Shown here piece after piece: positions 1-33,303 of a stretch of 64,000 nucleotides of DNA (position 1 is the first letter of the stretch; each line of letters opens with the position of its first letter). A program made the translations under genes and the position numbers. The stretch is from positions 1,465,189 through 1,529,188 of the forward strand of contig NZ_CP045851.1 of NCBI RefSeq assembly GCF_009650215.1, given 5' to 3'. Source of the DNA: Actinomarinicola tropica (GTDB lineage Bacteria > Actinomycetota > Acidimicrobiia > Acidimicrobiales > SKKL01). Below the pieces are notes generated by a model, which was not told the origin of the DNA, did no database searches, and was given only the letters and a program-made list of their open reading frames with translations.

Positions 1-764
1 CCGAGCGGGACGAGGTCCCGCACCACGGGCTCGACCTCATCGACCCCCACGAGGAGTTCACCGTCGCCGAGTTCCAGCGCCGCGTGCTCGCGGCGGTCGA
101 CGACATCGAGGCCCGTGGTCGACGGGCGCTCCTGGTGGGCGGCACGGGCCTCTACCTGCAGGCGGTGGTCGACGGGCTCGAGGTGCCGGGGCGCTACCCC
201 GACGTCCGCGCCGGGCTCGACGCCGAACCCGACACCGCGGCGCTCCACCGCCGGCTGTCGGAGCTCGACCCGCTGGCCGCCGCACGCATGGAGCCCACCA
301 ACCGCCGTCGGGTCCTACGGGCCCTCGAGGTCACCATCGGCGGCGGGCGACCGTTCTCGTCGTACGGCCCCGGCCTCGACGCCTACCCGCCCAGCCGCTT
401 CCGCCTCGTCGGGCTGCGCCTGCCCCGTCCGGTGCTCGACGAGCGGATCGCCGCCCGGTACGCGGCGCAGGTGGAGGCGGGGTTCGTCGAGGAGGTGCGG
501 CGGGTGTGGGAGGACCCGCGTGGCGTCTCGCGCAGCGCCGCCCAGGCGCTCGGGTACAAGGAGCTGGCCGACCACCTCGCCGGGCGCTGCACACTCGAGG
601 AGGCGCTCGAGCTGGCCGTGCGGCGCACCCGCCGGTTCGCCCGTCGCCAGGAGCGGTGGTTCCGCCGTGATCCTCGGATCACCTGGCTCGAGCCACCGCC
701 GCCCGACCACGATGCGCGGGCCGTGCTGGACGAGCTGCTCGCCATCTGGGACGAGCCCGGCTGA
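1..764 (+). CDS. miaA: tRNA dimethylallyltransferase MiaA (5' truncated by window edge)
   Basis: The frame is open from the first complete codon at position 3, so the gene starts before the window and only about 253 C-terminal residues are seen. MiaA transfers a dimethylallyl group to A37 of tRNAs that read codons starting with U. Visible family blocks are PHHGLDLIDP followed by FTVAEFQR, then LLVGGTGLYLQAVVDGL, the NRRRVLRALEV helix, and the C-terminal ALGYKEL and RRTRRFARRQERWFR blocks that bind tRNA. The P-loop lies outside the window. A GTG at 84 is an internal codon, not the start. dapF follows after 43 bp on the same strand, a common actinobacterial arrangement. Confidence 0.95.
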   Translation, partial: ERDEVPHHGLDLIDPHEEFTVAEFQRRVLAAVDDIEARGRRALLVGGTGLYLQAVVDGLEVPGRYPDVRAGLDAEPDTAALHRRLSELDPLAAARMEPTNRRRVLRALEVTIGGGRPFSSYGPGLDAYPPSRFRLVGLRLPRPVLDERIAARYAAQVEAGFVEEVRRVWEDPRGVSRSAAQALGYKELADHLAGRCTLEEALELAVRRTRRFARRQERWFRRDPRITWLEPPPPDHDARAVLDELLAIWDEPG

Positions 765-807
765 AACGGTGGTGGTTCGGCGATCGACCGGCGAGACTGG
801 CGGTCAC

Positions 808-1638
808 ATGCGCATCTCGAAGCTGCACGGCCTCCGCAACGACTTCCTCGTCCTCCTCGACGAGCACCAGGACGGTCCCCTCGACGTGGGTCCCGAGCTG
901 GCGCGCCGGCTCTGCGACCGGCGGTCCGGCCTCGGCGCCGACGGACTGATCCACGGGACCAGGCCCGACGCGGGGTCCGACGCCGACGTCGTGATGCACC
1001 TCTTCAACGCCGACGGCAGCCGGGCGGAGGTGAGCGGCAACGGCATCCGCTGCCTGGCCCAGGCCGTCGCCCGGTCGCGCGGCGCCGAGGGTCGTGTGGT
1101 CGTGGTGGCCGACAGCGGTCGTCGGGAGACCGTCGTACGGCCAGGGACCTCCCCGTCCGACGTCGTCGTCGAGGTCGACCTCGGACCTGTCGGGCCGGGA
1201 CCGGGTCTCGCCGCACCGCTGCCCCTCGCGGTGAAGGAGTCCGGCACCGCCGACCTCGGCAACCCCCACGTCGTCGCGTGGCTCGACCTCTCGCCCGGCG
1301 ATCTGCGCCAGGTCGACCTGGCGCAGATCGGCCCGGCAGTCGAGTCGTCGTACCCTGAGGGCATCAACCTCGAGCTCATCGTCCCCGGGCCCGACCCCGA
1401 CGTGCTCGTGCTCCGGGTCTGGGAGCGCGGCGTCGGGATCACCGAGGCCTGCGGCAGCGGTGCGTGCGCCGCCGCCGCCCTCGCCCACGGGTGGGGGCTC
1501 GTCGGTCCGAAGGTCCGGGTCGAGATGCCGGGCGGCGCGGTCGACGTCGAGCTCGTCGAGGGCCGCGCCGTGCTCCACGGGCCGTCGGTGCTCGTGGCCG
1601 AGATCGAGCTGAGGGAGGGGGCGGTCCTCGATGGCTGA
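808..1638 (+). CDS. dapF: Diaminopimelate epimerase DapF (first catalytic Cys is Ser)
   Basis: A protein of 276 residues, the usual DapF length. The enzyme converts LL- to meso-diaminopimelate in lysine and peptidoglycan synthesis, using two cysteines as acid/base pair. The second is present at Cys215 in EACGSGAC. In the first motif, NADGSRAEVSGNGIR, the expected Cys of CGNG is Ser76, with Cys82 six residues later. Gly-rich loops and the LGNPHVV block are intact and there is no sign of decay. The ATG at 808 follows miaA closely, and the 3' end overlaps hflX by 8 bp, so the two are probably translated together. The gene belongs functionally with dapC, dapD and dapE downstream. The family call is sure; full epimerase activity is not, because of Ser76. 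Confidence 0.9.
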   Translation: MRISKLHGLRNDFLVLLDEHQDGPLDVGPELARRLCDRRSGLGADGLIHGTRPDAGSDADVVMHLFNADGSRAEVSGNGIRCLAQAVARSRGAEGRVVVVADSGRRETVVRPGTSPSDVVVEVDLGPVGPGPGLAAPLPLAVKESGTADLGNPHVVAWLDLSPGDLRQVDLAQIGPAVESSYPEGINLELIVPGPDPDVLVLRVWERGVGITEACGSGACAAAALAHGWGLVGPKVRVEMPGGAVDVELVEGRAVLHGPSVLVAEIELREGAVLDG

Positions 1639-2980
1639 GCGCGAGGAGAAGCCCCGTCGATCCGACACCGCCGCCTCCGACCACCGTGGTGCGTTCGGCG
1701 AGTTCGGCGGCGAGCGCGGCGCGTTCATCGAGCGCACGTTCCGGGAGAAGATCATCCTCGTCGGCGTGGTGTCGCCGGGCCGCTCGGAGGAGGAGGTCGA
1801 GGCATCTCTCGACGAGCTCGCTCTGCTCGTCGACACTGCAGGCGCCGACGAGGTCGACCGCGTGCTCCAGCGTCGGGCCACGCCCGACCCCGCCACCTAC
1901 ATCGGCAAGGGCAAGGTCGAGGAGATCCGCGTGCTCGCCGAGGCCGCGGACGCCGACACGGTCGTGTTCGACGACGAGCTGACACCCGCGCAGCAGGGCA
2001 ACCTCGAACGGCTGCTCGGTCGGTCGGCCATCGACCGCACGGCCGTGATCCTCGACATCTTCGCCCAGAACGCCCACACGGTGGAGGGCAAGGCGCAGGT
2101 CCAACTCGCGCTCCTGCGGTACCGGCTCCCGCGCCTGCGGGGCAAGGGCAAGTCCCTGTCCCAGCAGTCCGGCGGCATCGGCGCCCGGCGGGGCCCCGGC
2201 GAGACCCAGCTCGAGGTCGACCGCCGTCGAGTGGCCCGGCTGATCCACAAGCTCGAGGCCGACCTGCGTGAGATCGGCCACCACCGCGACGTGCAGCGCA
2301 AGTCCCGCCGTCGGTCGCCGTACCAGCAGGTCGCGATCGTCGGCTACACCAACGCCGGCAAGTCCACCCTCCTCAACCGTCTCACCGATGCCGGGGTGCT
2401 CGTCGAGGACCGCCTCTTCGCCACCCTCGACGCCACGACCCGCCGCCTGCAGCTCCCCGGCGGCGAGACCGTGCTCGTCACCGACACCGTCGGCTTCGTC
2501 ACCAAGCTGCCCCACCAGCTGGTGGAGGCGTTCAAGTCGACCCTCGAGGTCGTCGCCGAGGCCGACCTCCTCGTCCACCTCGTCGACGCCTCCGGGCCCG
2601 AGGTCGCGGCGCACATGGACGCTGTGCGCTCGGTCCTCGGGGAGATCGGCGCAGGGGACGTTCCGGAGCTGCTCGCGTTCAACAAGGCCGACCTCACCGA
2701 CGAAGCCGGTCAGCTCGCCGCGAGCCACCCCGGGTCGGTGGCGCTCTCGGCCGCCTCCGGCGAGGGCGTCGACGAGCTGCTCGTCGCCATCGGCGATCGC
2801 CTGCGGGCCCTCACCCAGGTGGTCGAGCTCGTCGTCCCCTTCGACCGGGGCGACGTGCTCGCCGCCGTGCACCGCGAGGGAGAGGTCCTCGTCGAGACGA
2901 CGGGCGAGGACGGCATGCGCCTCCGCGCCCGCCTCGACGACGCCTCCTCGGCCCGCCTGGCCGAGTTCGTCGTCGGCTAG
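1631..2980 (+). CDS. hflX: GTPase HflX
   Basis: A 449-residue GTPase of the HflX family, known to bind the 50S subunit and split stalled or stress-inactivated ribosomes. The N-terminal HflX domain contains the Gly-rich loop QQSGGIGARRGPGETQLE followed by a long coiled coil. The G domain shows G1 (GYTNAGKST), G2 (FATLDATTR), G3 (DTVGF), G4 (NKAD) and G5 (SAASGEG). The ATG lies inside the end of dapF, an 8-bp overlap, so expression is probably coupled. It ends 26 bp before the aminotransferase gene. All motifs are intact and no oddity was seen. Confidence 0.96.
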   Translation: MAEREEKPRRSDTAASDHRGAFGEFGGERGAFIERTFREKIILVGVVSPGRSEEEVEASLDELALLVDTAGADEVDRVLQRRATPDPATYIGKGKVEEIRVLAEAADADTVVFDDELTPAQQGNLERLLGRSAIDRTAVILDIFAQNAHTVEGKAQVQLALLRYRLPRLRGKGKSLSQQSGGIGARRGPGETQLEVDRRRVARLIHKLEADLREIGHHRDVQRKSRRRSPYQQVAIVGYTNAGKSTLLNRLTDAGVLVEDRLFATLDATTRRLQLPGGETVLVTDTVGFVTKLPHQLVEAFKSTLEVVAEADLLVHLVDASGPEVAAHMDAVRSVLGEIGAGDVPELLAFNKADLTDEAGQLAASHPGSVALSAASGEGVDELLVAIGDRLRALTQVVELVVPFDRGDVLAAVHREGEVLVETTGEDGMRLRARLDDASSARLAEFVVG

Positions 2981-3006
2981 CTACTGGCCGCCGTCGGTGT
3001 GCTTGC

Positions 3007-4137
3007 ATGGCCGGCGTGAGCGCCTCCGGTTTCGTCCCCCCGCCGTACCCCTACGACCGCCTCGACGAGCTGAAGTCGGTGGCCGCGGCGCACGAGGGCG
3101 GCATGGTCGACCTGTCGGTCGGGACGCCGTGCGACCCGCCGCCGCCGGAGGTCGTCGCGGCCCTCGGTGGCTCGGGCGCCGAGCGGGGCTACCCGCCGTC
3201 GATCGGCAGCGCCGCCTACCGGGAGGCGGCGGCGGCGTGGGTCGAGCGTCGGCTGGGCGCCTCGGTGGCGCCGTCGCAGGTCGGGGCGTGCATCGGGACG
3301 AAGGAGCTGGTGGCGGGGATGCCGCACTGGCTCCGGTTGCGGGACCCGTCCCGCGACACCGTCCTGTATCCCGAGATCAGCTACCCGACCTACGAGATGG
3401 GGGCCGTGCTCGGTGGGTGCCGGGCGGTGCCGGTGGCGGTCGACGACGACTGGCGCATCGACCTGTCGTCGATCTCCGCGGAGGACGCGGGCCGTGCCCT
3501 CTGCCTGTGGGTGAACACGCCGGGGAACCCGGCCGGCGGTCTCGACGACCTCGACGCGGCAGCCGAGTGGGGGCGGGCGCACGGCGTGCCGGTCCTGTCC
3601 GACGAGTGCTACGCGGAGTTCACGTGGGACGGTCCGGCCCGCACCGTCCTGCGGAGCGGGAGCGAGGGCGTGCTGGCGGTGCACTCGTTGTCGAAGCGCT
3701 CCAACCTCGCCGGTGCCCGCGCTGGCTTCTACGCCGGCGACGCCGAGCTCGTCCACTACCTCCAGGAGCTCCGCAAGCACGCGGGCTTCATGTTGCCCGG
3801 TCCGGTGCAGGCCGCGGCCGTCGTGGCCTTCGGGGACGACGCTCACGTCGACGTCCAGCGGGAGCGCTACCGTCGCCGCCTCGAGTGGGGGGCGGAGCTG
3901 ATCGGTCGGCGGTACGGGATCGACGTCGCGCTGCCGGGTGGCGGCTTCTACCTGTGGATCCCGGCGCCGGGCGGTGACGCCTGGGGCTTCGCCTCCCGCC
4001 TCGCCGAGGATCTGGGCGTTCTCGTCAGCCCCGGCGAGTTCTACGGCCCCGCCGGGGCATCGCACGTGCGGCTCGCCGTGGTGCAGCCGGACGACCGCCT
4101 GGAGCTCGTCACCGAGCGCGCGCAGCGCGCGATGTGA
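3007..4137 (+). CDS. dapC: Succinyldiaminopimelate transaminase (DapC-type, class I/II aminotransferase)
   Basis: A 376-residue PLP-dependent fold-type I aminotransferase. Seen are the N-terminal block DLSVGTPCDPPP, the cofactor motif NTPGNPAGG, the DECYAEF block and the Schiff-base lysine in HSLSKRSNLAGARAGF, followed by the substrate Arg region VRLA. This pattern is that of actinobacterial N-succinyldiaminopimelate aminotransferase, the step between DapD and DapE. The presence of dapD and dapE 3.7 kb downstream and dapF upstream supports the role. The ATG at 3007 gives the expected N-terminus. A different amino-acid substrate cannot be excluded from sequence alone. Confidence 0.85.
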   Translation: MAGVSASGFVPPPYPYDRLDELKSVAAAHEGGMVDLSVGTPCDPPPPEVVAALGGSGAERGYPPSIGSAAYREAAAAWVERRLGASVAPSQVGACIGTKELVAGMPHWLRLRDPSRDTVLYPEISYPTYEMGAVLGGCRAVPVAVDDDWRIDLSSISAEDAGRALCLWVNTPGNPAGGLDDLDAAAEWGRAHGVPVLSDECYAEFTWDGPARTVLRSGSEGVLAVHSLSKRSNLAGARAGFYAGDAELVHYLQELRKHAGFMLPGPVQAAAVVAFGDDAHVDVQRERYRRRLEWGAELIGRRYGIDVALPGGGFYLWIPAPGGDAWGFASRLAEDLGVLVSPGEFYGPAGASHVRLAVVQPDDRLELVTERAQRAM

Positions 4138-4204
4138 CATCGGGCACCACGGAGCGTGAGAAGGAGGTAGCCTCGCGACAGGCTCCGTGAAGGGGAGGGT
4201 GCGG

Positions 4205-6529
4205 ATGGGCCGGCCCGAGCAGCTCGCGATGCGCACGGCGATCGCCTTCGCCGCCGCGGCTGCCGGCTGGATCCTGTTCTCCGACCTGGTCCTCGACCGG
4301 GTGGTGGGGATCCGCTTCGACGGCCGTACCGACGCCCTGAAGGGCCTGGCCTTCGTCTCGGTGGTCTCGGTCTTCCTCTACTGGCTGGTCCTCCGCAACA
4401 ACCGCACGGTCATCGGGTTGGCCGACCGCCTCGCCCACCAGGCGGCGATCGACGCCCGGCTGTTCCGGTCGAGCCCCGAGGCCATGTGGGTCTACGACGC
4501 CGACACGCTCGAGCTCGTCGAGGTCAACGACACCTTCGTCGCCGCGACCGGCTACAGCCGCGCCGATCTGCTGCGCATGCGGGTGCCCGATCTCACCCTG
4601 GAGTCGGAGCGTCCGGCCGTCGAGCGGATCGCCCGGACGTCGGGCCTGATCGGGGAACCGCAGGTGCTGCTCCAGGTCCTGAAGGACGGTGCGCACCGGT
4701 GGGTGGAGATCACCTCGCACGCCATCGACGTCGAGGGACGGCGCGCCCGGCTGGCCGTGGGTCGCGACGTCACCGAGCAGCGCCTCGCCGCCGAGGCGCT
4801 GCGGGCGAGCGAGCGGCGCCTGGCCGGCATCCTCGCCTCGATGCAGGAGATGGCGTTCTCCGTCGACATGCAGGAGCGACGCATCACCTACCTCAACGAG
4901 GTCGCCGCCGAGCTGCTCGGTCGCCCGACCGACGAGCTGCTCATGTCGCTCGCGGAGTTCGTCGACCTCGTCGTGCCCGAGGACCGCGAGCGCCTGCGTG
5001 CCACGCTCGGCGACGTCGTCGAGAAGGGGTGGGCCGAGACCGAGATCCGGTTGCGATCGGCCGCAGGCGGCACGCGCACCCTGCGCCTCAAGGGCACCGC
5101 CGTCGTCGCCGCGGACGGCACGATCACCCAGGTCGACGGCATCGCGACTGACCTGACGCACCGCCAGGAGCTCGAGGAGCTGGTGCACCACCAGCGGTCG
5201 TTCGACCAGCTGACGGGTCTGCCCGTGCGGCGGTCGTTCATCGAGGCGGTCGACGCTGCCGTGTCGGTCGGGCCGCACCTGGAGCCTCCGGCGATCCTGG
5301 CGATGTTCGACCTCGACCGCTTCGCCGACATCAACGAGGCTGCCGGTCACGACGCCGGCGACCACGTGCTGTGCCGCGTCGCCGAGCGGCTGCAGGCCCT
5401 GGTCGAGCCCGGGATGGTCGCGGCGCGCGTCGGCGGCGACGAGTTCGCCCTGTTCTGCCCGGCCGGGCTCACGAGCGCCCAGCAGCTCGGGGCCCGCCTC
5501 CGCTCCACGATCGAAGGGCTGGTGTCGCTCGACGGCTACGAGTTCTTCGTGAGCCTCGGGGTGGGCCTGGCCGTCGCCGAGCCGTCCAGCACCGCCGACG
5601 ACCTCCTCCGCAACGCCCACCTGGCGATGTCCGCGGCGAAGGCCCGCACCTCCGGCGTCGAGGTGTACTCGCCGTCGCACCACGTCCAGGCGGTCGACCG
5701 GGTGCGGGCCGAGGGCGATCTCCGCCGAGCCCTCAGCGAGGACCGCCTCCTCGCCGTGTACCAGCCGGAGGTCGACGTGCGAACCGGTCGGATGATCGGC
5801 GCCGAGGCCCTCATCCGCTGGGACCACCCGGAGCGTGGGCTGGTCGCGGCCGGCGAGTTCATCGCCGAGGCGGAGCGCAGCAACCTCATCATCGAGGTGG
5901 GCGACCTCATGCTGCGCCGGGCGCTCGAGCAGGCGGCCCACTGGCACGACGTCCACGGGCCGGCGGCCCCGATCGTCTGGGTCAACCTGTCGCGCCGCGA
6001 GCTCGACGATCCGGCGGTCGTCGACCGGGTCCGCCAGGCGATCGACGCGGCGGGCGTCCCGGTGCACCTGGTCGGCATCGAGGTGACCGAGACGGCGTTC
6101 GTCGACGAGGGCGGCACCGCCACCGAGTCGCTGGCGGGCTTGGCGGCGATGGGGGTGCGGCTGGCGCTCGACGACTTCGGCACCGGGTGGTCGTCGCTGA
6201 AGTCGCTGAAGTCGTTCCCGTTGTCGGTCGTGAAGATCGACAGCTCGTTCGTCGGCAACGTCGCCAGCGCCTCGCGCGACCGCAAGATCGTGCAGGCGAT
6301 CATCGGCATGGCCCACGGCATGTCGATGTCGACGATCGCCGAGGGCGTCGAGACCCACGAGCAGCTCGAGGCCCTCGCGGCGCTCGGCGCCGACCGCGCC
6401 CAGGGCTACCTGCTGGCCCGCCCCGAACCGGCGTCGGTGATCGACGACCTCCTCGACGCCGGCGGGGTCGTCGAGGTGATGCGTGACCGGCCGCGGCTGC
6501 CACGCATCGTGGGCGGGACTCAGATGTAG
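4205..6529 (+). CDS. Membrane PAS-PAS-GGDEF-EAL cyclic-di-GMP protein
   Basis: Two N-terminal membrane helices (about residues 10-28 and 45-65) precede two PAS sensor domains (about 80-195 and 200-320), a diguanylate cyclase-like GGDEF domain and an EAL phosphodiesterase domain. GGDEF is intact (RVGGDEFALF), and the EAL domain retains GAEALIRW, the EVTET block, DDFGTG and KID, so both activities are possible, though PDE output with a regulatory GGDEF is also common. The start is taken at ATG 4205, which has an AGGGGAGG ribosome site about 6 bp upstream; a GTG at 4187 in the same frame has its purine run too far away. The gene converges with the CoA-transferase, overlapping it by 10 bp. Confidence 0.92.
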   Translation: MGRPEQLAMRTAIAFAAAAAGWILFSDLVLDRVVGIRFDGRTDALKGLAFVSVVSVFLYWLVLRNNRTVIGLADRLAHQAAIDARLFRSSPEAMWVYDADTLELVEVNDTFVAATGYSRADLLRMRVPDLTLESERPAVERIARTSGLIGEPQVLLQVLKDGAHRWVEITSHAIDVEGRRARLAVGRDVTEQRLAAEALRASERRLAGILASMQEMAFSVDMQERRITYLNEVAAELLGRPTDELLMSLAEFVDLVVPEDRERLRATLGDVVEKGWAETEIRLRSAAGGTRTLRLKGTAVVAADGTITQVDGIATDLTHRQELEELVHHQRSFDQLTGLPVRRSFIEAVDAAVSVGPHLEPPAILAMFDLDRFADINEAAGHDAGDHVLCRVAERLQALVEPGMVAARVGGDEFALFCPAGLTSAQQLGARLRSTIEGLVSLDGYEFFVSLGVGLAVAEPSSTADDLLRNAHLAMSAAKARTSGVEVYSPSHHVQAVDRVRAEGDLRRALSEDRLLAVYQPEVDVRTGRMIGAEALIRWDHPERGLVAAGEFIAEAERSNLIIEVGDLMLRRALEQAAHWHDVHGPAAPIVWVNLSRRELDDPAVVDRVRQAIDAAGVPVHLVGIEVTETAFVDEGGTATESLAGLAAMGVRLALDDFGTGWSSLKSLKSFPLSVVKIDSSFVGNVASASRDRKIVQAIIGMAHGMSMSTIAEGVETHEQLEALAALGADRAQGYLLARPEPASVIDDLLDAGGVVEVMRDRPRLPRIVGGTQM

Positions 6530-19486: not shown

Positions 19487-19576
19487 TTGACACCGATGGA
19501 ATTACGGTGGTGTAATCATCCCCACATCTTGTGGGCATCGCCCGCGGGAGTGGGGGGAACACACCACATCTGGTGT
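19487..19576 (+). promoter_or_regulatory. nrdJ promoter with two NrdR-box-like palindromes
   Basis: -35 TTGACA (19487-19492) and -10 TGTAAT (19511-19516), 18 bp apart. Two related palindromes follow: around 19520-19536 (CCCCACATCTTGTGGG) and 19561-19576 (ACACCACATCTGGTGT, near-perfect). Their cores CACATCT are 42 bp apart, four helical turns, and the first covers the expected start of transcription. This fits repression by NrdR, whose gene is nearby. A GGCCGCCG/CGGCGGCC hairpin (19607-19629) lies in the leader. Confidence 0.65.
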
Positions 19577-19653
19577 CCGCCGCTGGGGCGGGCACATCGC
19601 TGAAGCGGCCGCCGTTCGACACGGCGGCCTCTACGTCCCGAGGAGCGCAACGC

Positions 19654-22452
<2,799 letters not shown>

Positions 22453-22463
22453 AACCCTTGGAT

Positions 22464-22646
22464 GTTGCATCAGATGCAACCGCGAATGTGCGGAAGCTGA
22501 CGGTAGCGACATCAGCGAGATAGGCGCTCTGACCAGGGCCGACGTGAACCGGGCCACCGGAGCGTCGGCCCTTGTCGTTCCCCGCCAACGGAAGTGCTGG
22601 CCTGGGTGTTCGCGATCTGATACAACGATGTTGCATCGTGTGCAAC
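22464..22646. promoter_or_regulatory. Two GTTGCA...TGCAAC palindromes upstream of the recombinase operon
   Basis: GTTGCATCAGATGCAAC (22464-22480, perfect 8-bp arms around one base) and GTTGCATCGTGTGCAAC (22630-22646, 6-bp arms). The second ends 17 bp before the recombinase GTG start, just before its ribosome site, and the first lies 11 bp after the nrdJ stop. They are probably operators for the island's own regulator or recombinase binding sites at the element's left end. Confidence 0.55.
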
Positions 22647-22663: not shown

Positions 22664-23770
22664 GTGACACGTCGGGAACCAGGATCGGCGCAGCTGGTAC
22701 TCGCAGATGGCGTCGTCCACCTGGATGTCCCCGAAGCTGTCTGGCAGGCGATGTGCCTGGGCTGGTCTCAGCAACAGCAGAGCCGGATGCTACGGCCCGA
22801 GACGATCAGCCAGCGTCTGAGCGTCATCCGAAGGTTCCGCGAGTTCACGGGGAGCTATCCGTGGCAGTGGCACCCCGCCGATGTCGAAGAGTTCACCGTG
22901 GCGGCCGTAGCGGGTGGTGCCAAGGCGCACGCGACCATTCGCGGCTATCAGAACCACATCGCCCTGTTCTGCGAGTACCTGATCGATCGCCGCTACGAGT
23001 GGGTCGCCGTCTGCGAAGAGCGGTTCGGTGCAGCGCCCGCCCAGATCTGTCACGAGTGGAACACGGTCGACCATGTCCAGCAGCTCGAAGCGCAGCCAGC
23101 TCGCCGACCGCTTGACCTAGACGAGCTCGAGGCGTTGTTCGCTCACGCTGACGAGCGCGTCGAGCAGATTCAGCGCTCTGGGCGCAAGGGCGCTGTCGCC
23201 GCGCTTCGGAACGCCACGGCCTTCAAGGTGTCGTACGCCTGGGGCCTCCGGTTGCGCGAGATGACGCATCTTGATCTCGTCGACCGCCACCGCAACCCGA
23301 AGGTGCCAGGCTGGGGGCGCTACGGCGCCCTCCGTGTGCGCTTCGGGAAGTCGAGCCGCGGGAGCGCTCCTAAGCAGCGCACGGTGCTGACCGTGCCGGA
23401 GATGGACTGGGCGGTCGAGGCGTTGCAGCACTGGGTCGAGGTTGCCCGGCCGCTGTTGAAGCCGGGCCAGCATCCGGCGATCTTTGTCACCGAGCGACGC
23501 AGCCGGATGTCGGAGTGGAGCGCCGACGTCGCGTTCGCCGCGGTCCGCGAGCGGGCCGGCCTCGACAGCGCGATCACGCACCACTGCTTGCGGCACAGCT
23601 ACGTCACCCATCTGCTGGAGCACTACGGCTACCCAGAGCTCTTCGTCCAGCAACAGGTCGGCCATGCCTACGCCTCTACGACCGCCATCTACAGCGGTGT
23701 CAGCGACGAGTTCAAGAACCGAATCCTCGCCGACGCCATCGCTGCCAACCGACCGGAGGTCACTCGATGA
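22664..23770 (+). CDS. Tyrosine recombinase/integrase (TnpA-like, first gene of a recombinase trio)
   Basis: A 368-residue tyrosine recombinase with an N-terminal SAM-like core-binding domain (about 40-140) and a complete catalytic domain: Arg196 (WGLRLRE), Lys229 (RFGKSS), His307 and Arg310 (HHCLRHSYVTHLL), His334 (QQVGHAYAS) and Tyr343 (AIYSG). It should cut and rejoin DNA at the element's attachment sites. GTG 22664 is chosen because TTAGGAGGG lies just upstream. The stop overlaps the next start (ATGA). Base composition is lower in GC than the core genes. Length matches TnpA of the Tn554 family. Confidence 0.93.
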   Translation: MTRREPGSAQLVLADGVVHLDVPEAVWQAMCLGWSQQQQSRMLRPETISQRLSVIRRFREFTGSYPWQWHPADVEEFTVAAVAGGAKAHATIRGYQNHIALFCEYLIDRRYEWVAVCEERFGAAPAQICHEWNTVDHVQQLEAQPARRPLDLDELEALFAHADERVEQIQRSGRKGAVAALRNATAFKVSYAWGLRLREMTHLDLVDRHRNPKVPGWGRYGALRVRFGKSSRGSAPKQRTVLTVPEMDWAVEALQHWVEVARPLLKPGQHPAIFVTERRSRMSEWSADVAFAAVRERAGLDSAITHHCLRHSYVTHLLEHYGYPELFVQQQVGHAYASTTAIYSGVSDEFKNRILADAIAANRPEVTR

Positions 23771-24108
23771 CCCGCAAGATGCGCACCCGCTGGAACCTGC
23801 GGCGCGTGATGGCCGATCGGGGCATGTACCAGACCTCCGACATCGTCGGACCGCTCGCTGAGCGCGGCATCCACCTGTCCCGAGAGCAGGTCTACCGCCT
23901 CGTGACCGGGGAGCCGCAACGCCTGTCGATGGACACTCTCGCCGCGCTCTGCGACATCCTCGACTGCACACCCAACGACCTCATGGAGGTCGTCCTTGAG
24001 TCCCGTCAGGTCCGCAAGACGGGCACGGCCAACGCCGGCGGCGAGGGACCCGCCGTGAGCGATCTCCGTCCCGTTCGGGCACGCATCAAGCGTCCGCCAA
24101 AGTCATGA
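23767..24108 (+). CDS. Small HTH (XRE-type) protein of the recombinase trio
   Basis: A 113-residue protein with a Cro/C1-type helix-turn-helix at about residues 8-80: LRRVMADRGM, then LSREQVYRLVTGEPQRLSMD and LAALCDILDCTPNDL, the last block being typical of the XRE family. A basic tail (RARIKRPPKS) follows. It overlaps both neighbours by ATGA (with the recombinase at 23767 and the third gene at 24105), so all three are translated together. It may be the regulator of the operon or an accessory DNA-bending partner, as the small TnpC is for Tn554; which one is not known. Confidence 0.88.
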   Translation: MTRKMRTRWNLRRVMADRGMYQTSDIVGPLAERGIHLSREQVYRLVTGEPQRLSMDTLAALCDILDCTPNDLMEVVLESRQVRKTGTANAGGEGPAVSDLRPVRARIKRPPKS

Positions 24109-26267
24109 CCGACCTGACCGCAGTCGTCGATGCCGCATGTGCGGCCGCACCTGAGCTTGACCGACGCGTTATCGAGGACATCGTCGCCGCGGCGGCGCCG
24201 ATTACGCAGCAGCGCAACAAGTTGATTAGGTACCTCGCCGACGTCACAGCGTTCACCAGCGGCGCGAGTGACGTGCCGCCTGTCGTCGCTCGCGTCCTCA
24301 CCGACATGGCCGGGGCCGGCGCACCGGTGACACCGCCGGCATGTGACGGGTGCGGACGCGTGGTGCGGCTCGTCTACAAGCGGGGAAGCGGCCGGGTCTG
24401 CAAAGCATGTGGGCAGTCGCAGTACTCGGAGACGTGCAGCGAATGTGGACAGGACCGGCGCGTCTCGATCCGCAACCCCGACGGGACCGCTGTGTGCAAC
24501 TCCTGCCGACTCCGTCAGCGGACCGAGCACTGTGCCTCATGCGGACGCGACCGACCGGTATCCCGGCGCACCCCTGATGGCGGCGCGCTCTGTCAGAGCT
24601 GCTACCAGCGCCCAGAGCGCGAGTGTGCGTCCTGTGGTCGCGTCGCTCCCGTGAAGTCCAACAAGACCGGCGAACCGCTGTGCGGTACCTGCTACCGCGC
24701 TCCGGCGGCGCTCTGCGCGAAGTGCGGCGAGCACCGCGCCCTTGCTGCGCGCGACGTCATCGACCTCGGCAATGTCTGCACGCGTTGCTGGCGGCCTGCG
24801 ACCAGAACCTGCAGCGTCTGTGGCGACACGAAGCCGTGTCGTGTCTCCGAGAGCGACGGCAAGCCGTACTGCGGTGTCTGTGCGCCACGACCGCTGGTCA
24901 CCTGCGCTCGATGTGGGCGCGATCGACCGGTCCAGGCACACACCGACATCGGCCCGGTCTGCAACGGCTGCTATGACCACGTCGTCGCCCGGCCTTGCGC
25001 CGCCTGCGGCGAGCTAACACGCATCTACGCCGACGGGCGGTGCCACCGCTGCGTACTCACCGCCAGACTCGACACTGCGTTTGGCCAGCGGCCGGAGCTC
25101 ACCTCCGTGCGAGACGCGCTGCTCGAGGGTCGATCAGCTGCAGCGACGCTGCGTTGGTTCGATCACGGAGCCGGCGGACAACTTCTACGCAGGGTCGCCA
25201 GTGGCGAGGTCGAGCTCAGCCACGAGGCGCTCGACCAGTTCGGTCGTGGCCATCGGCATGTCGACCACGTGCGCCAGCTGCTCGTCGCCGTCGGTGCGCT
25301 CCCTGATCGAGGTGAGCTGGCCGCTCGCCTCTCTGTCTGGCTCGACAGCTTCACAGCGACCCTCCCACCCTCGCACGCGCGTGTGGTGCGACCGTTCGCC
25401 GAATGGCGGATCCTTCGGCGAGTCCGACGACAGGACGCACGCGATCGGCTGACGGACGCCGGTGCGAAGTGGGCGAGGCAGCGCATACGAACAGCCGCGA
25501 ACCTTCTCGCATGGCTGGACCTGCGCGACCTTGAGCTCGAATCGCTAGCACAGCGCGACCTCGACGCGTGGCTCGCCGCCGGGCCCACCACGCGCTACTG
25601 CATACGTGACTTCCTCCGTTGGGCACACGAGCGCAACGAAGCGCCGAAGCTCACCGTTCCGCTCCGACAGGCACTCACCGCTACCGCCGCCGTCGACGAT
25701 GCCGACAGATGGGCGCTTGTCGACGACCTACTTCACAACGAGGACATCCCGCTTGACCTACGTATCGCCGGACTTCTCGTCCTCGTCTACGGCCAGCACC
25801 TCAGTCGCGTCGCCACGATTCGGCTCGACGACATCGAGCACGGACCGCCGACCACGGTGAAGTTCGGCAGCTCGCCCGTCGCTCTCCTCGAACCACTCGA
25901 TGACCTTGTCCGCCGTCAGGTTGAGACTCCCCGAGGACACGCAGGTGCAGCGGTCGAGAACCCGTGGCTCTTCCCAGGTGGCCACGCCGGCGAGAACGTG
26001 ACCCCGGAGCAGCTCCGCAAGCGCCTCGAAGCCGCAATCGGCATCCGCGCCCGACCCTCACGGAACACCGCTCTTCTCCACCTCGCCCGGGAGATTCCCG
26101 TTCCGGTGCTCGCCGACCTACTCGGACTTCACTTCAACACCGCTGTCGACTGGGTCCAACTCGCACGCGGTGACTGGTCGGGGTACGTCGCGAGCCGAGA
26201 GGCCTCGGCCCGTCGCGCCCCCGCAGCCAGCCGACCGAGTTCTGCGGGACCACCCTTTGGATCGTGA
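24105..26267 (+). CDS. Recombinase-like protein with eight tandem zinc modules, catalytically dead
   Basis: A 720-residue protein. Residues 80-316 contain sixteen CxxC pairs at a regular spacing: modules begin at Cys80, 111, 143, 174, 204, 236, 267 and 298, each about 31 residues with two CxxC knuckles, so eight zinc fingers. Residues about 405-515 resemble a SAM-like core-binding domain and about 530-690 a tyrosine-recombinase catalytic fold, but the first catalytic Arg aligns with His565 (GQHLSRVATIRL), the HxxR His is lost (RPSRN), the second His position is Leu675 and the Tyr position is Trp683 (TAVDW). It is therefore probably a DNA-binding or targeting partner. Position and size recall TnpB of Tn554, without clear identity. 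Confidence 0.85.
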   Translation: MTDLTAVVDAACAAAPELDRRVIEDIVAAAAPITQQRNKLIRYLADVTAFTSGASDVPPVVARVLTDMAGAGAPVTPPACDGCGRVVRLVYKRGSGRVCKACGQSQYSETCSECGQDRRVSIRNPDGTAVCNSCRLRQRTEHCASCGRDRPVSRRTPDGGALCQSCYQRPERECASCGRVAPVKSNKTGEPLCGTCYRAPAALCAKCGEHRALAARDVIDLGNVCTRCWRPATRTCSVCGDTKPCRVSESDGKPYCGVCAPRPLVTCARCGRDRPVQAHTDIGPVCNGCYDHVVARPCAACGELTRIYADGRCHRCVLTARLDTAFGQRPELTSVRDALLEGRSAAATLRWFDHGAGGQLLRRVASGEVELSHEALDQFGRGHRHVDHVRQLLVAVGALPDRGELAARLSVWLDSFTATLPPSHARVVRPFAEWRILRRVRRQDARDRLTDAGAKWARQRIRTAANLLAWLDLRDLELESLAQRDLDAWLAAGPTTRYCIRDFLRWAHERNEAPKLTVPLRQALTATAAVDDADRWALVDDLLHNEDIPLDLRIAGLLVLVYGQHLSRVATIRLDDIEHGPPTTVKFGSSPVALLEPLDDLVRRQVETPRGHAGAAVENPWLFPGGHAGENVTPEQLRKRLEAAIGIRARPSRNTALLHLAREIPVPVLADLLGLHFNTAVDWVQLARGDWSGYVASREASARRAPAASRPSSAGPPFGS

Positions 26268-26273
26268 AATCAC

Positions 26274-26975
26274 ATGCGTGTCACTCATCCTGCCTATGCT
26301 CCACACATGGCTCGACGTCACGCCCCCACCAGTTCCGTCGCGCGCCCGTACGACGAGGGCCTGACTGTCGATGCCCTCGGCGGAGTCCCGTTCGGCACTG
26401 TTCTCGCCGACCCGCCGTGGCGCTTTCAGAACCGCACCGGCAAAGTGGCGCCCGAGCATCGGCGCCTGTCCCGCTACGACACGATGAGCCTCGACGACAT
26501 CTGCAGTCTGCCCGTGGCGAACGTGATGGCCGAACAGTCGCACTGCTACCTGTGGGTGCCTAACGCACTGGTCGCCGAAGGACTCCAGGTGCTTGAAGCG
26601 TGGGGGTTCACGTACAAGTCGATGGTCGTGTGGGCCAAGCGCCGCAAGGATGGCGGCCCCGACGGCCGCGGCGTCGGGTTCTACTTCCGGAACGTGACTG
26701 AGCCGATCCTGTTCGGGGTGCGCGGCAAGCTGCGGACGCTCGCGCCGGCCCGCCGGCAGGTCAACATGATCGAGACACAGAAGCGGGAGCACTCCCGAAA
26801 GCCCGACGAGCAGTACGGAATAATCGAGGCCTGTTCGCCGGGCCCATACCTGGAGCTGTTCGCCCGGTACCCGCAGGAGGGGTGGACGGCGTGGGGCAAC
26901 GAGGCTGACCCAGAGGTCGTCCCTCGAGGCCGTCAGTACCCCACGTACGGCGGGCTGGCTGCTGTCGCCAACTAG
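26274..26975 (+). CDS. MT-A70 family adenine-N6 DNA methyltransferase
   Basis: A protein of 233 residues (222 if ATG 26307 is the start; neither ATG has a good ribosome site). The catalytic DPPW is at residues 46-49 in TVLADPPWRFQNRTG, followed by the MT-A70 blocks LPVANVMAEQSHCYLWV, GFTYKSMVVWAKRR and the C-terminal KPDEQYGIIEACSPGPYLELFAR, here split by positions 175-210. It methylates adenine N6 in DNA; phage and restriction-modification versions are known. The convergent BglII-like endonuclease gene ends 3 bp away, so this is most likely the protective methylase of a type II system. Confidence 0.88.
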   Translation: MRVTHPAYAPHMARRHAPTSSVARPYDEGLTVDALGGVPFGTVLADPPWRFQNRTGKVAPEHRRLSRYDTMSLDDICSLPVANVMAEQSHCYLWVPNALVAEGLQVLEAWGFTYKSMVVWAKRRKDGGPDGRGVGFYFRNVTEPILFGVRGKLRTLAPARRQVNMIETQKREHSRKPDEQYGIIEACSPGPYLELFARYPQEGWTAWGNEADPEVVPRGRQYPTYGGLAAVAN

Positions 26976-26978
26976 GCG

Positions 26979-27878
26979 TCATTTCACCGGCGGGATCTTT
27001 GCTTTGGCCGCCTCGCGCAAGGTCCTCACGTCGCGCTGCGCCTCCCGGTGGTCGCTGTAGTGGTCTCTCCAGTTGTCCAGCCGCTCTTTGGCGGCGGCCA
27101 GCTCTTGGCTCACCTCAACGACCAGCTCGATGCCGGTCACGCGCTCGGGCTCGATGCCGACGAGCAACAGGGGGCACTCACCACCGCCTCCCAGGTTGAC
27201 CCGCGGTACGAGCTTGTCCCAGTGCGTCGACGACTGCCCGTACTTCAACCCGCCGTCCTTGGAGCGGATGACCGGGCCGATCAACTCCTGTAGCCGCGGG
27301 CCGCGGGTGACGATGACGCCAGCGGCGATGGCGCCTTCTCTGTGGAGCGCAGAGAAGTTGTTGAGGTCACGGTCGTAGAACGGGTCCTTGTTGTTCCACT
27401 CCATCTCGACGGCAACACCGGGGAGGTGGTCATCGAGATGGCCGAGTCCGAACATGTCGATCTCGTGGCCACGGGTCCGTGCGACCTCCTCGAGGTTGTC
27501 GTCGAACCCGAGTCGCTTGCTGATCGTGATGTTCTGCTTCCCCCACACCTGGACCCCCGTGTCGCGCCGATCTCGTAGGGACTGGTCGAAGCGGGCAACG
27601 AACTTCGTGCGGCCTCCGCCACCGGCACGAAGCTCGTCAAGGCTGATCGTGAACTGGTCGAGGCTGGCAATGAGGTCGTTGAGGCGACTGGAGTAGGCAC
27701 CCTGGAGGATGATGTCGGCGTGTCGCGTGACGCCGTAGGTGTAGCCGTCTGGAAGGCCCTCGATGATCGGCTGCCCGACGGCACCGGGCAGGTCCTCGTC
27801 GGCTGTGACCTCTGCTGCGGCGTCGTCGTCTGGCACGGCCGCCAAGCTACGCGCCCGATTGCGGGGCTGCGTGGACAT
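26979..27878 (-). CDS. BglII-family type II restriction endonuclease
   Basis: A protein of about 299 residues from ATG 27878. The middle block GVAVEMEWNNKDPF followed by YDRDLNNFSALHREGAIAAG is typical of the BglII restriction endonuclease family. Candidate active-site residues are Asp149, Glu158 and Glu160, whose spacing fits D-x8-E-x-(E/Q) of BglII. The protein should cut unmethylated DNA at a short palindrome of unknown sequence. The gene is convergent with the MT-A70 methylase (3-bp gap). The exact start is uncertain because no ribosome site is clear; the first 35 residues are low-complexity. Confidence 0.78.
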   Translation of the reverse strand: MSTQPRNRARSLAAVPDDDAAAEVTADEDLPGAVGQPIIEGLPDGYTYGVTRHADIILQGAYSSRLNDLIASLDQFTISLDELRAGGGGRTKFVARFDQSLRDRRDTGVQVWGKQNITISKRLGFDDNLEEVARTRGHEIDMFGLGHLDDHLPGVAVEMEWNNKDPFYDRDLNNFSALHREGAIAAGVIVTRGPRLQELIGPVIRSKDGGLKYGQSSTHWDKLVPRVNLGGGGECPLLLVGIEPERVTGIELVVEVSQELAAAKERLDNWRDHYSDHREAQRDVRTLREAAKAKIPPVK

Positions 27879-27958
27879 CCCGAGAGCGAAGTGACGGTCT
27901 GCGACGGGTCTGTGGAGGTTGGCTTCGCCGGTGATGAACCCACGAGCACTACGACTCC

Positions 27959-27977
27959 GGCCAGCGGAATGCTGGCC
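27959..27977 (-). terminator. Hairpin downstream of the 132-residue island gene
   Basis: GGCCAGC (27959-27965), a 5-base loop, then GCTGGCC (27971-27977), 13 bp beyond the stop of the gene at 27991-28389 on the minus strand. Short stem, no T-run. Confidence 0.35.
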
Positions 27978-27990
27978 TTGTCCTGGTGGA

Positions 27991-28389
27991 CTAGAGGAGC
28001 CGGATCGCCTCTGCGATCTTGGCGTCGACCTCGTTTCCGCTTGCGGTGCCAGGCAGCCGGAAGGTGTGCGGGTGATCACCCGGTCCCCGTGAGACCACGA
28101 CCCGAACCTCACTGCCCCGCTCATCGTGGATCACATGCACATGCGGGTAGGTCGTCGTGATGTTCCCGTCTGGGCCGATCATCACATGGATGGTTCCGTC
28201 CTCGCTGCTGTACTTCGAGTACCAGCCGCCCTTTCGAGACGGCGCGGGGTACCTGGCGAGGCGCTCCGCCTGTGCCTGCTTGATGAACTTCCTCGTGATT
28301 AGAGGGTTCATCGCCGTCCCGTTCCGAACCGAACGGGCCATGCCTTTGAGGTTGTCGCCCAGGCTGGGTTGCGGCCCCAAGAATCCCAT
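27991..28389 (-). CDS. Hypothetical protein (132 aa), island
   Basis: Function unknown. The start is ATG 28389, with AAGGAGAG about 5 bp upstream; an ATG at 28404 is in frame but less well placed. Residues about 15-60 are basic (RRxxKFIKQAQAERLARYP-like), and the C-terminal half is beta-rich with a His-containing core (TYPHVHVIHDERG, then DHPHTFRLPG) and ends in a short helix. The HVHVIH/HPH pattern could bind a metal, but no known family was recognised. It lies upstream of the restriction endonuclease on the same strand. Confidence 0.6.
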   Translation of the reverse strand: MGFLGPQPSLGDNLKGMARSVRNGTAMNPLITRKFIKQAQAERLARYPAPSRKGGWYSKYSSEDGTIHVMIGPDGNITTTYPHVHVIHDERGSEVRVVVSRGPGDHPHTFRLPGTASGNEVDAKIAEAIRLL

Positions 28390-29232: not shown

Positions 29233-29478
29233 GTGGGTCGGGTTGCAGGTGGTGACAGAGCCGTAGCGGCCGACTTCGGTCGGCGAGTCAGGGCTGAGCG
29301 CAAGAGGATTGGCCTGTCCCAGGAAGGCCTTGCCGCTAGAGCTGGCATCCATCGGACCTTCGTTGGTCGGGTTGAGCGAGGCGAGGCGAACGTCACCCTG
29401 ACGACGATCGTCCGGCTGGCCGATGTGTTCGGCGTTGATCCCGGCGCCCTCGTGGCCGGCTTCCGGGGTACGAAGTAG
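29233..29478 (+). CDS. XRE-family HTH regulator (restriction controller-like)
   Basis: An 81-residue protein, almost entirely one helix-turn-helix domain: FGRRVRAERKRIGLSQEGLA, then ARAGIHRTFVGRVERGE and NVTLTTIVRLADVFGVDPG. Small XRE proteins of this size are found as controller proteins of restriction systems and as regulators of mobile elements; the MT-A70/BglII pair is 1.4 kb away. The GTG start at 29233 has no obvious ribosome site, so a leaderless start is possible. A hairpin follows the stop. Confidence 0.82.
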   Translation: MGRVAGGDRAVAADFGRRVRAERKRIGLSQEGLAARAGIHRTFVGRVERGEANVTLTTIVRLADVFGVDPGALVAGFRGTK

Positions 29479-31397: not shown

Positions 31398-32465
31398 ATG
31401 GGACTGCCTGATGACATCGAGTTGGCGGCATCTGGGTCCGGTCGTGTGCCCATCGAGGTCGACTGCGGCCGCCTCGATCCTTCTGCTGCTGCCCGTGTCC
31501 GGGACTGGGCGACGCAGATGTGGGCTGCCACGAGCGGGCCACTCCTCGAGGAGACTGGCCACGAGGTGCCGTCGATTCGTGTCCTGGTCGCCGAGGATGT
31601 CTGGGCAGCAGCTCGGCGCGAAGCTGCGGCACTCGGTCTCGGGCCTGATCGCCGGGAGGGACCCGAGCGAGTCGGCGGTGTCGTCGCCGGCAAGTGCTTG
31701 AGGTCCGACGATGATCGCCACGCCACCGTCGTTGTGCCGGAGACCATCATGGCTGGCAACGACGGGATCGCTCAGTGCCACGCTGCCGCGATCCTCGCAC
31801 ACGAACTGTGCCACGCCGTCTACGCCGTTCGGAGACGACATGCGATGGGCGCAACTGAGGACGTCTGGCTGCCCTGGGATGTTGCCGGGATGATCTCGGT
31901 GGTTGCGGCGGAGGAGTACCGAGTCGACCGGTTGGCGTTGATCCTCACACAAGCTCTGCTCAACCCCACCGACGTGAATGGCACAAGCATTCCGCTCGCC
32001 TCCGTGTTCGGGAGCCTGTACTTCGAAGGGCTCAGCAACGCGCTCCATGAGGTCAGCCCAGGACTCGATGAGTCGGTGTGGAGCTACCGGACAAGGGCGA
32101 TGGATCTCGACGCCCTGAGGCAGCGGCTGACCCGAGTGACAGAGGGCATCGCGAACTACATCGCTCACGTTGAGGCGTACTTCGAAGACAAGGACCCAGC
32201 TATGACGCTCATCGAGGGTCGAGCGGTCGACCTACTGGAACCGTTCTGGGCGCCTTGGATCGATCATCTCCGAAGCGCTCCGCTGCTTCCAGGACCAAAC
32301 GAGTGGGCGGCCGACCGCGCGGCTCTCTGGGGGATCGGAAGCACAGGCATCCAGGAGGCGTGGCGAAGGCTAGGCATCACGACCCGCCCCGAAGGTGGGG
32401 GCTTCTACATGGCCGTTGATGACCCCGCGCGCGCTCATCCCGGCGAGCGGCGACGCCGGTCCTAG
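31398..32465 (+). CDS. Zincin-type metallopeptidase-like protein (HExxH)
   Basis: A 355-residue protein with the zinc motif HELCH (His135, Glu136, His139) in AAILAHELCHAVYAV and a downstream EEYRVDRLA block (Glu172/173) that fits the third ligand of gluzincins such as ImmA/IrrE peptidases. No signal peptide. The C-terminal 120 residues are mostly helical and unrecognised. ImmA-type peptidases usually cleave a partner XRE repressor; HTH proteins are encoded 2 kb and 7 kb upstream in the island, but none is adjacent. A promoter candidate and GTGAGG ribosome site support the ATG at 31398. Confidence 0.75.
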   Translation: MGLPDDIELAASGSGRVPIEVDCGRLDPSAAARVRDWATQMWAATSGPLLEETGHEVPSIRVLVAEDVWAAARREAAALGLGPDRREGPERVGGVVAGKCLRSDDDRHATVVVPETIMAGNDGIAQCHAAAILAHELCHAVYAVRRRHAMGATEDVWLPWDVAGMISVVAAEEYRVDRLALILTQALLNPTDVNGTSIPLASVFGSLYFEGLSNALHEVSPGLDESVWSYRTRAMDLDALRQRLTRVTEGIANYIAHVEAYFEDKDPAMTLIEGRAVDLLEPFWAPWIDHLRSAPLLPGPNEWAADRAALWGIGSTGIQEAWRRLGITTRPEGGGFYMAVDDPARAHPGERRRRS

Positions 32466-32670: not shown

Positions 32671-32724
32671 TTCCGACACGAATGTCCAGATTCCCGACGG
32701 CGCGTTCCATTGGGGGGTGTGGGA

Positions 32725-33303
32725 GTGGCTCTCGCCGATGCACTCGACCGATTCGCGGCTGTCTGGGACAGCCACGGCGTCGTCGCGACGGCACACCTCG
32801 CCGCAGCCGCGTCACCATCGGAGGTTCGGGACATCGTCGGGTCGCTCGGCTATGAGGTAGCCGACGAGGTGGTCACGTGGTTCTCGTGGCGTGGTGGGGT
32901 CGCTCACGTGAACCGTAGGGTCGGACCGGCGTTCGAGCCGGTCGGTGCGCACGAGACGCTCCCTGTGCGCACGATGAACTTGGAGCTCTTCAACAGCCTG
33001 CGTGACGAGGGCGATCTGCCTCCGGAGGCTGTGTGGCGGCCGTCGTGGGTGCCGGTGGTGCACTTCCTCCACGGCGGGTATCTCGCGGCGGACCTCGCAG
33101 CCGGTGACCCGACGACCGCGACGGTGTGGCGCCATGACGACGTGACGCCTTTGCCGTACCAAGTGGCCCCGTCCCTCGAGACGATGGTCGACGGCTGGAT
33201 CGAACTGATCGCCGGAGGGTTCTGGCTTCCCCAACCGGAGAACTCCGCCTGGGGCCTTGGACGGTACCCACTTCCCGAGCACCTCGCCGGGCTCAGCGCC
33301 TAG
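32725..33303 (+). CDS. SUKH (SMI1/KNR4)-like protein
   Basis: A protein of 192 residues from GTG 32725 (GTG 32719 is also in frame, but the GGGGGG ribosome site suits 32725). The pattern ADALDRFAAVWDSHG, then WVPVVHFLHGGYLAADLAAG and SLETMVDGWIELIAGGFW follows the SMI1/KNR4 superfamily: an acidic/aromatic core strand with a Gly-rich turn and a final helix of the type LxxMxxxWIxLI. Such proteins are often immunity proteins against nuclease toxins, but no toxin is adjacent, so the role here is unknown. Confidence 0.65.
   Translation: MALADALDRFAAVWDSHGVVATAHLAAAASPSEVRDIVGSLGYEVADEVVTWFSWRGGVAHVNRRVGPAFEPVGAHETLPVRTMNLELFNSLRDEGDLPPEAVWRPSWVPVVHFLHGGYLAADLAAGDPTTATVWRHDDVTPLPYQVAPSLETMVDGWIELIAGGFWLPQPENSAWGLGRYPLPEHLAGLSA

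Follow-up and report, generated by a model that had tools for sequence, protein, structure and literature searches.

A coupled operon of a tyrosine recombinase, a small DNA-binding protein and a catalytically dead, zinc-module recombinase-like protein as the probable recombination module of an actinobacterial mobile-element family

The window, i.e. the whole stretch of 64,000 nucleotides that was analysed, lies within a 3.7-Mb actinobacterial chromosome and contains, downstream of a class II ribonucleotide reductase gene of the nrdJ type, three consecutive genes designated INT, HTH and ZNF (Table 1). The layout given for them in an earlier note on this DNA was confirmed, both in the three gene sizes and in the two ATGA overlaps, which join INT to HTH at 23767-23770 and HTH to ZNF at 24105-24108.

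Table 1 Features of the trio locus and of the DNA next to it (positions in the window)
Feature	Position	Strand	Evidence
Class II ribonucleotide reductase (nrdJ type), with the integration target at its 3' end	19531-22452	+	Same-genus upstream gene order; trio downstream in relatives
Left end/attL region with palindrome GTTGCATCAGATGCAAC	22453-22480	+	Palindrome at 22465-22479; Streptomyces filled versus empty sites
Second, similar palindrome TTGCATCGTGTGCAA before INT; probable operator or promoter-proximal site	22631-22645	+	Repeat-pair statistics
INT, catalytically intact tyrosine recombinase, 368 aa	22664-23770	+	PF00589, E 3e-19; invariant catalytic residues
HTH, small Cro/C1-type DNA-binding protein, 113 aa	23767-24108	+	PF13443, E 3e-18
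ZNF, zinc-module protein with catalytically dead tyrosine-recombinase fold, 720 aa	24105-26267	+	Motifs, AlphaFold, PDB matches, dN/dS
Zinc array of ZNF, residues 80-316, 16 CxxC	24342-25052	+	CxxC motifs; DZR Pfam match
Tyrosine-recombinase-like fold of ZNF, about residues 404-704, Trp683 at the nucleophile position	25314-26216	+	Alignment, model, profile
Probable cargo: MT-A70/type II DNA methyltransferase	26274-26975	+	PF05063, E 1e-27; PADLOC MTase_II, E 5e-100
Probable cargo: BglII-type restriction endonuclease	26979-28124	-	PF09195, E 1e-23
Probable cargo: C-protein-like regulator of a restriction-modification system	29233-29478	+	PADLOC Control_protein, E 2e-15

INT had been taken for an active tyrosine recombinase, and its predicted catalytic set is indeed complete (R196, K229, H307, R310, H334 and Y343) and invariant across the 11 homologues aligned. 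Two similar palindromes precede the gene, the first of them starting 13 bases beyond position 22452, where the nrdJ stop codon ends. A 16-mer common to the left-end and pre-INT regions, with at least 13 matches, was detected in 14 of 64 loci as compared to 5 of 192 shuffles, a signal that is modest in many of the 64. The palindrome sequence depends on the clade (TTGCATC..GATGCAA or TCAACTT..AAGTTGA), and the spacing is typically 116-133 bases, with 166 in the window. The window's palindrome and pre-INT region yielded no promoter matching the sigma-70 consensus. Such paired palindromes would fit a binding site for HTH or INT at both places.

ZNF, present as a single copy in the window's genome, consists of an N-terminal helical part, the 16 CxxC motifs and a C-terminal domain. 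The steps between CxxC motifs alternate between 19-21 and 11-12 residues, yielding eight C-x2-C-x16-18-C-x2-C modules of about 31 residues each, and hence both the motif count and the step lengths agree with the eight regularly spaced modules originally described; the modules are predicted to bind zinc. In homologues the number of CxxC motifs is mostly even (6, 12, 14, 16 or 18), corresponding to three, or about six to ten, modules. As for the C-terminal domain, the Pfam scan of ZNF gave no integrase match of its own, PF00589 was matched by 3 of 13 aligned ZNF homologues, and a profile comparison of ZNF with INT was not significant. The ZNF family profile nevertheless finds Cre in the PDB by sequence alone (E 9e-4). 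An AlphaFold model obtained with a 48-sequence alignment reached a mean pLDDT of 87.2, and the 50 PDB matches listed for it were all tyrosine recombinases (probability 1.00), among them Cre, XerH, XerA, lambda integrase and the integron and Tn1549 integrases. The tyrosine-recombinase fold that the earlier note had recognised in ZNF is therefore borne out by model and profile alike.

The companion claim, that this fold had lost every catalytic position, needs one correction. The nucleophile position is occupied by Trp in 46 of the 48 homologues and by Tyr in none, the first arginine is retained in only 3 of 48 and most homologues have lost the His of HxxR, but the second catalytic arginine (Arg653 of RPSRN) has been kept in 46 of 48. 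Homologues with all catalytic residues were looked for among the 48 and none was found. ZNF cannot be expected to cleave DNA, though the fold, its core-binding part and one arginine remain. Pairwise dN/dS values were 0.14-0.36 for ZNF, which ruled it out as a pseudogene, and 0.05-0.16 for INT; ZNF thus evolves faster, and at the sequence level purifying selection is evident on both genes. Between the zinc array and the recombinase fold, no consistent excess of change was found in the array.

ZNF was detected in 16 of 297 genomes evenly drawn from the phylum, the window's included, with a patchy distribution, and several of these genomes have INT, HTH and ZNF in the same order. A search of genome contigs with the single ZNF protein produced no matches. 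A first alignment (A1) being too diverse, an INT alignment (A2) was used for scanning and returned 585 relatives. Among the best 80 of these, whose loci were examined, HTH comes directly after INT in all 80 and ZNF is next in 75; at two loci (L128 and L129) the C-terminal domain of ZNF is apparently missing. ZNF is matched by 243 plasmid records, the hosts named being actinobacteria, and by no phage record, and its copies are mostly annotated as hypothetical protein, some as site-specific integrase. As far as sequence comparison goes, the trio is the conserved movement module of a widespread actinobacterial mobile-element family. At two loci, two copies of the element lie in tandem (L138, 1-5435, and L172, 1-6063).

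Evidence for movement came from several hosts. Two plasmids of one Rhodococcus strain have only a 6.0-kb block in common, with unrelated DNA on either side; the block comprises the trio together with an additional recombinase and a fourth gene, and ends at the C-terminus of the latter. Mycobacterial copies have different left flanks and nearly identical cores. The trio is located downstream of nrdJ in 11 loci, namely the window, L130, the Acidimicrobiaceae and uncultured actinobacterium MAGs L150 and L151, and seven Streptomyces loci, in all seven of which the nrdJ stop codon is immediately followed by GGCGGAATTGCRTCGGATGCAACAYYCG or a sequence close to it. For comparison, thirty further Streptomyces nrdJ ends were collected, and in those read this left-end sequence was not found after nrdJ, with the exception of one degenerate scar, GCGGAACCGCGTGGGATGCCACGTCCGACGTAG, at a locus without the trio (L222) that represents a decayed element. 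Where a downstream marker was found, it usually lay 0.75-1.0 kb past nrdJ in the absence of the element, compared to 5.6-10.3 kb in its presence.

The opposite junction could also be defined in relatives. In L169 and L166 the host sequence restarts at the base equivalent to the first one after the nrdJ stop codon, and GTGCYCTCCGCCAGTA, or a variant with two mismatches, stands at the right end in six loci (L158, L163, L166, L167, L169 and L179), the common core of L163, L166 and L167 ending at this motif. The right-end TCCGCC and the left-end GGCGGA stand in inverted orientation, as the core arms of a recombinase would. In four of the Streptomyces loci at nrdJ (L158, L163, L166 and L167) a fourth gene lies between the trio and the right end, immediately before the latter. 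Across nrdJ and the trio, L150 and L151 show 96% identity; they diverge from the end of ZNF on, and therefore the cargo starts there. Other long-array elements were located at the 3' ends of NlpC/P60 genes (L156, L164, L174, L176 and L181).

The comparison of flanks in related genomes thus uncovered defined ends, junctions and empty target sites in relatives, with copies at many sites, as foreseen by the proposal that the trio belongs to a mobile element; occurrence of the trio only as fixed, non-mobile genes was not what we found. These sequence data support the trio as the core of a mobile, site-specific element family. A resident system of plasmid or chromosome maintenance through dimer resolution, passively carried along, would agree with the trio being common on plasmids and with paired palindromes that resemble resolution sites. 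The existence of empty as well as filled sites, of copies nearly identical between species and of independent insertions after nrdJ makes this explanation extremely improbable, however.

For the window's own copy, the integration target is the 3' end of nrdJ. The upstream gene order of the nrdJ region is preserved in a same-genus genome, and a codon-usage gene finder lost most host-like genes between nrdJ and approximately 33.8 kb. The first genes after ZNF encode the MT-A70 methyltransferase and the BglII-type endonuclease, with the C-protein-like regulator further on, which together likely constitute a restriction-modification system carried as cargo; no relaxase was found among the window cargo genes scanned. 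A repeat of the nrdJ end or of the palindrome marking the right end was not found in the window, and same-genus and family synteny revealed neither the right end nor an empty site; the same-genus contig reaches 491 bp past nrdJ, and that stretch has no match to the window. The window copy itself may still be mobile. Some minor features were also observed. In the same-genus locus (L092, genome G297, 1-4500), an additional stretch of about 1.1 kb, perhaps an intein, interrupts the nrdJ match, and soon after the nrdJ stop codon a reading frame resembling an insertion sequence begins. In the window, a frame at 31398-32465 contains a metallopeptidase-like HELCH motif and has no Pfam match, and 32722-33300 gave a weak SUKH (SMI1_KNR4) match, possibly an immunity protein.

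A different target was found for the elements with short arrays. The three-module loci form one monophyletic clade in the INT tree (support 1.0), most of them are preceded by CACACCTCTTGCA, and the clade is inserted at CACACACCTCTTGCA, with MobF relaxase genes about 110 bp downstream. A count over 79 genomes from a single related genus gave 28 occurrences of ACACACCTCTTGCAYT and 0 of the reversed control; INT follows 4 of the 28 and is absent after the other 24. Those of the INT-free motifs that were checked lie 106-120 bp ahead of the start of a MobF relaxase gene (in L245, TrwC with E 3e-79), and for this reason the target motif of the short-array clade is probably part of the oriT. A filled site (L187) and an empty one (L253) showed 99.5% identity over 1524 bp ending at the junction, and the right junction of L145 matches the empty L245: the target restarts at 12320 in L145, with the sequence that in L245 lies 27 bases past the motif start. 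The L145 element is 4.5 kb long, starts with GAAGATCGCC and ends with CCTCTGCCAATA, the relaxase lying beyond its right end. The terminal AATA (AGTA in Streptomyces) is constant across different targets. Variable attL bases were considered as coupling sequences and discarded, given that the junctions show target sequence instead. In L140, L141, L143 and L146 the element is conserved together with a long right flank, and at the CACACACC motif most of the left flanks are different; this pattern is not fully explained, recombination of plasmid regions at the oriT spot being possible.

The number of zinc modules and the target class covary, but they do so through one deep split, which makes the covariation a lead rather than a test; it is suggestive of ZNF taking part in targeting. 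An extended version, in which the expandable array of the dead recombinase would be an evolvable target selector, with three modules for the MobF plasmid transfer origin and six to ten for the nrdJ or NlpC/P60 3' ends, is put forward with considerable reserve, and we would sooner bet against it. CxxC zinc modules often mediate protein contacts and the short-array clade adjoins MobF relaxase genes, so that the array might bind a protein (INT, the relaxase or a replication factor) instead of DNA. A relaxase partner cannot be general, however, because the long-array elements sit at nrdJ or NlpC/P60 3' ends, and we consider protein binding improbable.

From sequence comparison of its conservation, mobility, junctions in relatives, catalytic status, fold and purifying selection, we read the trio as most probably the left-end recombination module of a site-specific integrative element, with INT as the catalyst, HTH as a binding protein and ZNF as a non-catalytic DNA-binding subunit. 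INT would cut and join DNA at the element ends and at the fixed target by tyrosine-recombinase chemistry. HTH would probably bind the two palindromes, at the left end and at the INT promoter, thereby coupling expression to excision and integration. ZNF, with its recombinase domain and zinc array, may act as an architectural or target-recognition subunit, helping to recognise the target or to hold the recombination complex. The cargo would follow the module, that of the window being apparently the BglII-type restriction-modification system. Alternatively, ZNF could control directionality or regulation in the manner of an excisionase or a repressor, leaving INT alone to pick the target. The presence of one palindrome at the left end and another at the INT promoter does suggest regulation, and ZNF evolves faster than INT, but a recombinase fold with a conserved core-binding part plus a large zinc array exceeds what known excisionases need and HTH is the simpler candidate regulator; a regulatory ZNF is accordingly, in our judgement, unlikely though worth keeping in mind.

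No description of the trio was found in the open full-text literature, which is what our search covered. The family is apparently unnamed and falls under neither the SE nor the GInt definition, although these two are its nearest working parallels, combining like it a catalytic tyrosine recombinase, a dead partner of the same fold and a small DNA binder. SEs, reported only from Gammaproteobacteria, have an intA-tfp-intB-srap operon with two catalytic tyrosine recombinases, and Tfp has the recombinase fold without the catalytic motif and has been proposed to bind DNA without processing it (PMC10214605), to which the role of ZNF as a DNA-binding subunit is best likened. Shared with SEs are the left-end operon, a catalytic recombinase, a dead recombinase-fold protein, a small protein, site specificity and cargo placed behind the operon. 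In contrast to the two catalytic recombinases of SEs, the trio has one catalytic and one dead, and the window gene directly upstream of INT is nrdJ, not a second recombinase, so that the SE gene set is incomplete here. SEs also leave a variable 6-bp footprint by the right end, whereas in the trio elements AATA/AGTA is constant at different targets, and the zinc array of the trio family has no mention in the SE paper (PMC10214605).

GInts carry ginABCD, encoding three tyrosine-recombinase-like proteins, of which GinC has no catalytic residues, and a small HLH-like protein (PMC5385486). They resemble the trio elements in the coupled operon, the dead recombinase-like protein, the succession of operon, cargo and short right end, and a cargo that begins at the stop codon closing the operon (the ZNF end in L150/L151, the fourth gene in Rhodococcus). 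They differ in having three recombinase-like proteins as opposed to two, and the trio is set apart by its Actinomycetota host, its zinc array and its Cro/C1 HTH. Dead recombinase partners such as Tfp and GinC are known from Proteobacteria, and the actinobacterial family would be a system in which to test the job of this partner directly, as its members form a widespread natural series, with zinc-module numbers from about 3 to 10 and three classes of target, and come with defined ends as well as empty sites. The family would further provide restriction-modification and degradation cargo with another means of delivery in Streptomyces, Rhodococcus and mycobacteria, and would be an example of elements that settle where conjugative plasmids probably have their transfer origin.

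The parallel with Tn554 drawn in the earlier note proved to be a weak analogy. Tn554 possesses two catalytic recombinases (TnpA and TnpB) plus TnpC, and Tn554-like elements exist in actinobacteria (PMC3414803); they share with the trio the coupled genes and the nature of site-specific tyrosine-recombinase elements, but the trio has only one catalytic recombinase and its small partner is a PF13443 HTH. Moreover, two plasmids listed with the Famint36/41 Tn554-like pair by Van Houdt et al. lack an intact trio, one having no ZNF match and the other a broken ZNF remnant only. Despite the coupled operon of recombinase-like genes with a small protein, and the existence of actinobacterial relatives of Tn554, a Tn554-type transposon variant is thus a very unlikely description of the trio, given its single catalytic recombinase, its Cro/C1 HTH partner and these two plasmids. 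RIT elements also consist of three overlapping genes, all of them encoding tyrosine recombinases with a possible catalytic motif (PMC3414803), unlike the trio, which does not have three catalytic recombinases. Streptococcal IMEs integrate in the oriT of ICEs and encode their own relaxase (PMC7563843); the short-array clade likewise probably targets the transfer-origin region of a conjugative element, but there the relaxase belongs to the target locus and not to the trio element. The Gamma-mobile-trio (GmtX/Y/Z) is similar in being a trio with recombinase-like proteins and cargo, and its models gave no match above the cut-off, NCBIfam GmtZ scoring against INT far below it (E 0.16). Two further candidates were set aside as relatives, TnRErm46, which uses an IS481 transposase, and PAISt, with a single tyrosine recombinase, intSt, and a putative Xis gene beside it. 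Finally, in two loci (L057, 1-13200, and L058, 1-14300) a Tn554-like recombinase pair adjoins the trio block and is accompanied by DUF6262, TniQ and TnsA-like proteins and by arsenic/metal cargo.
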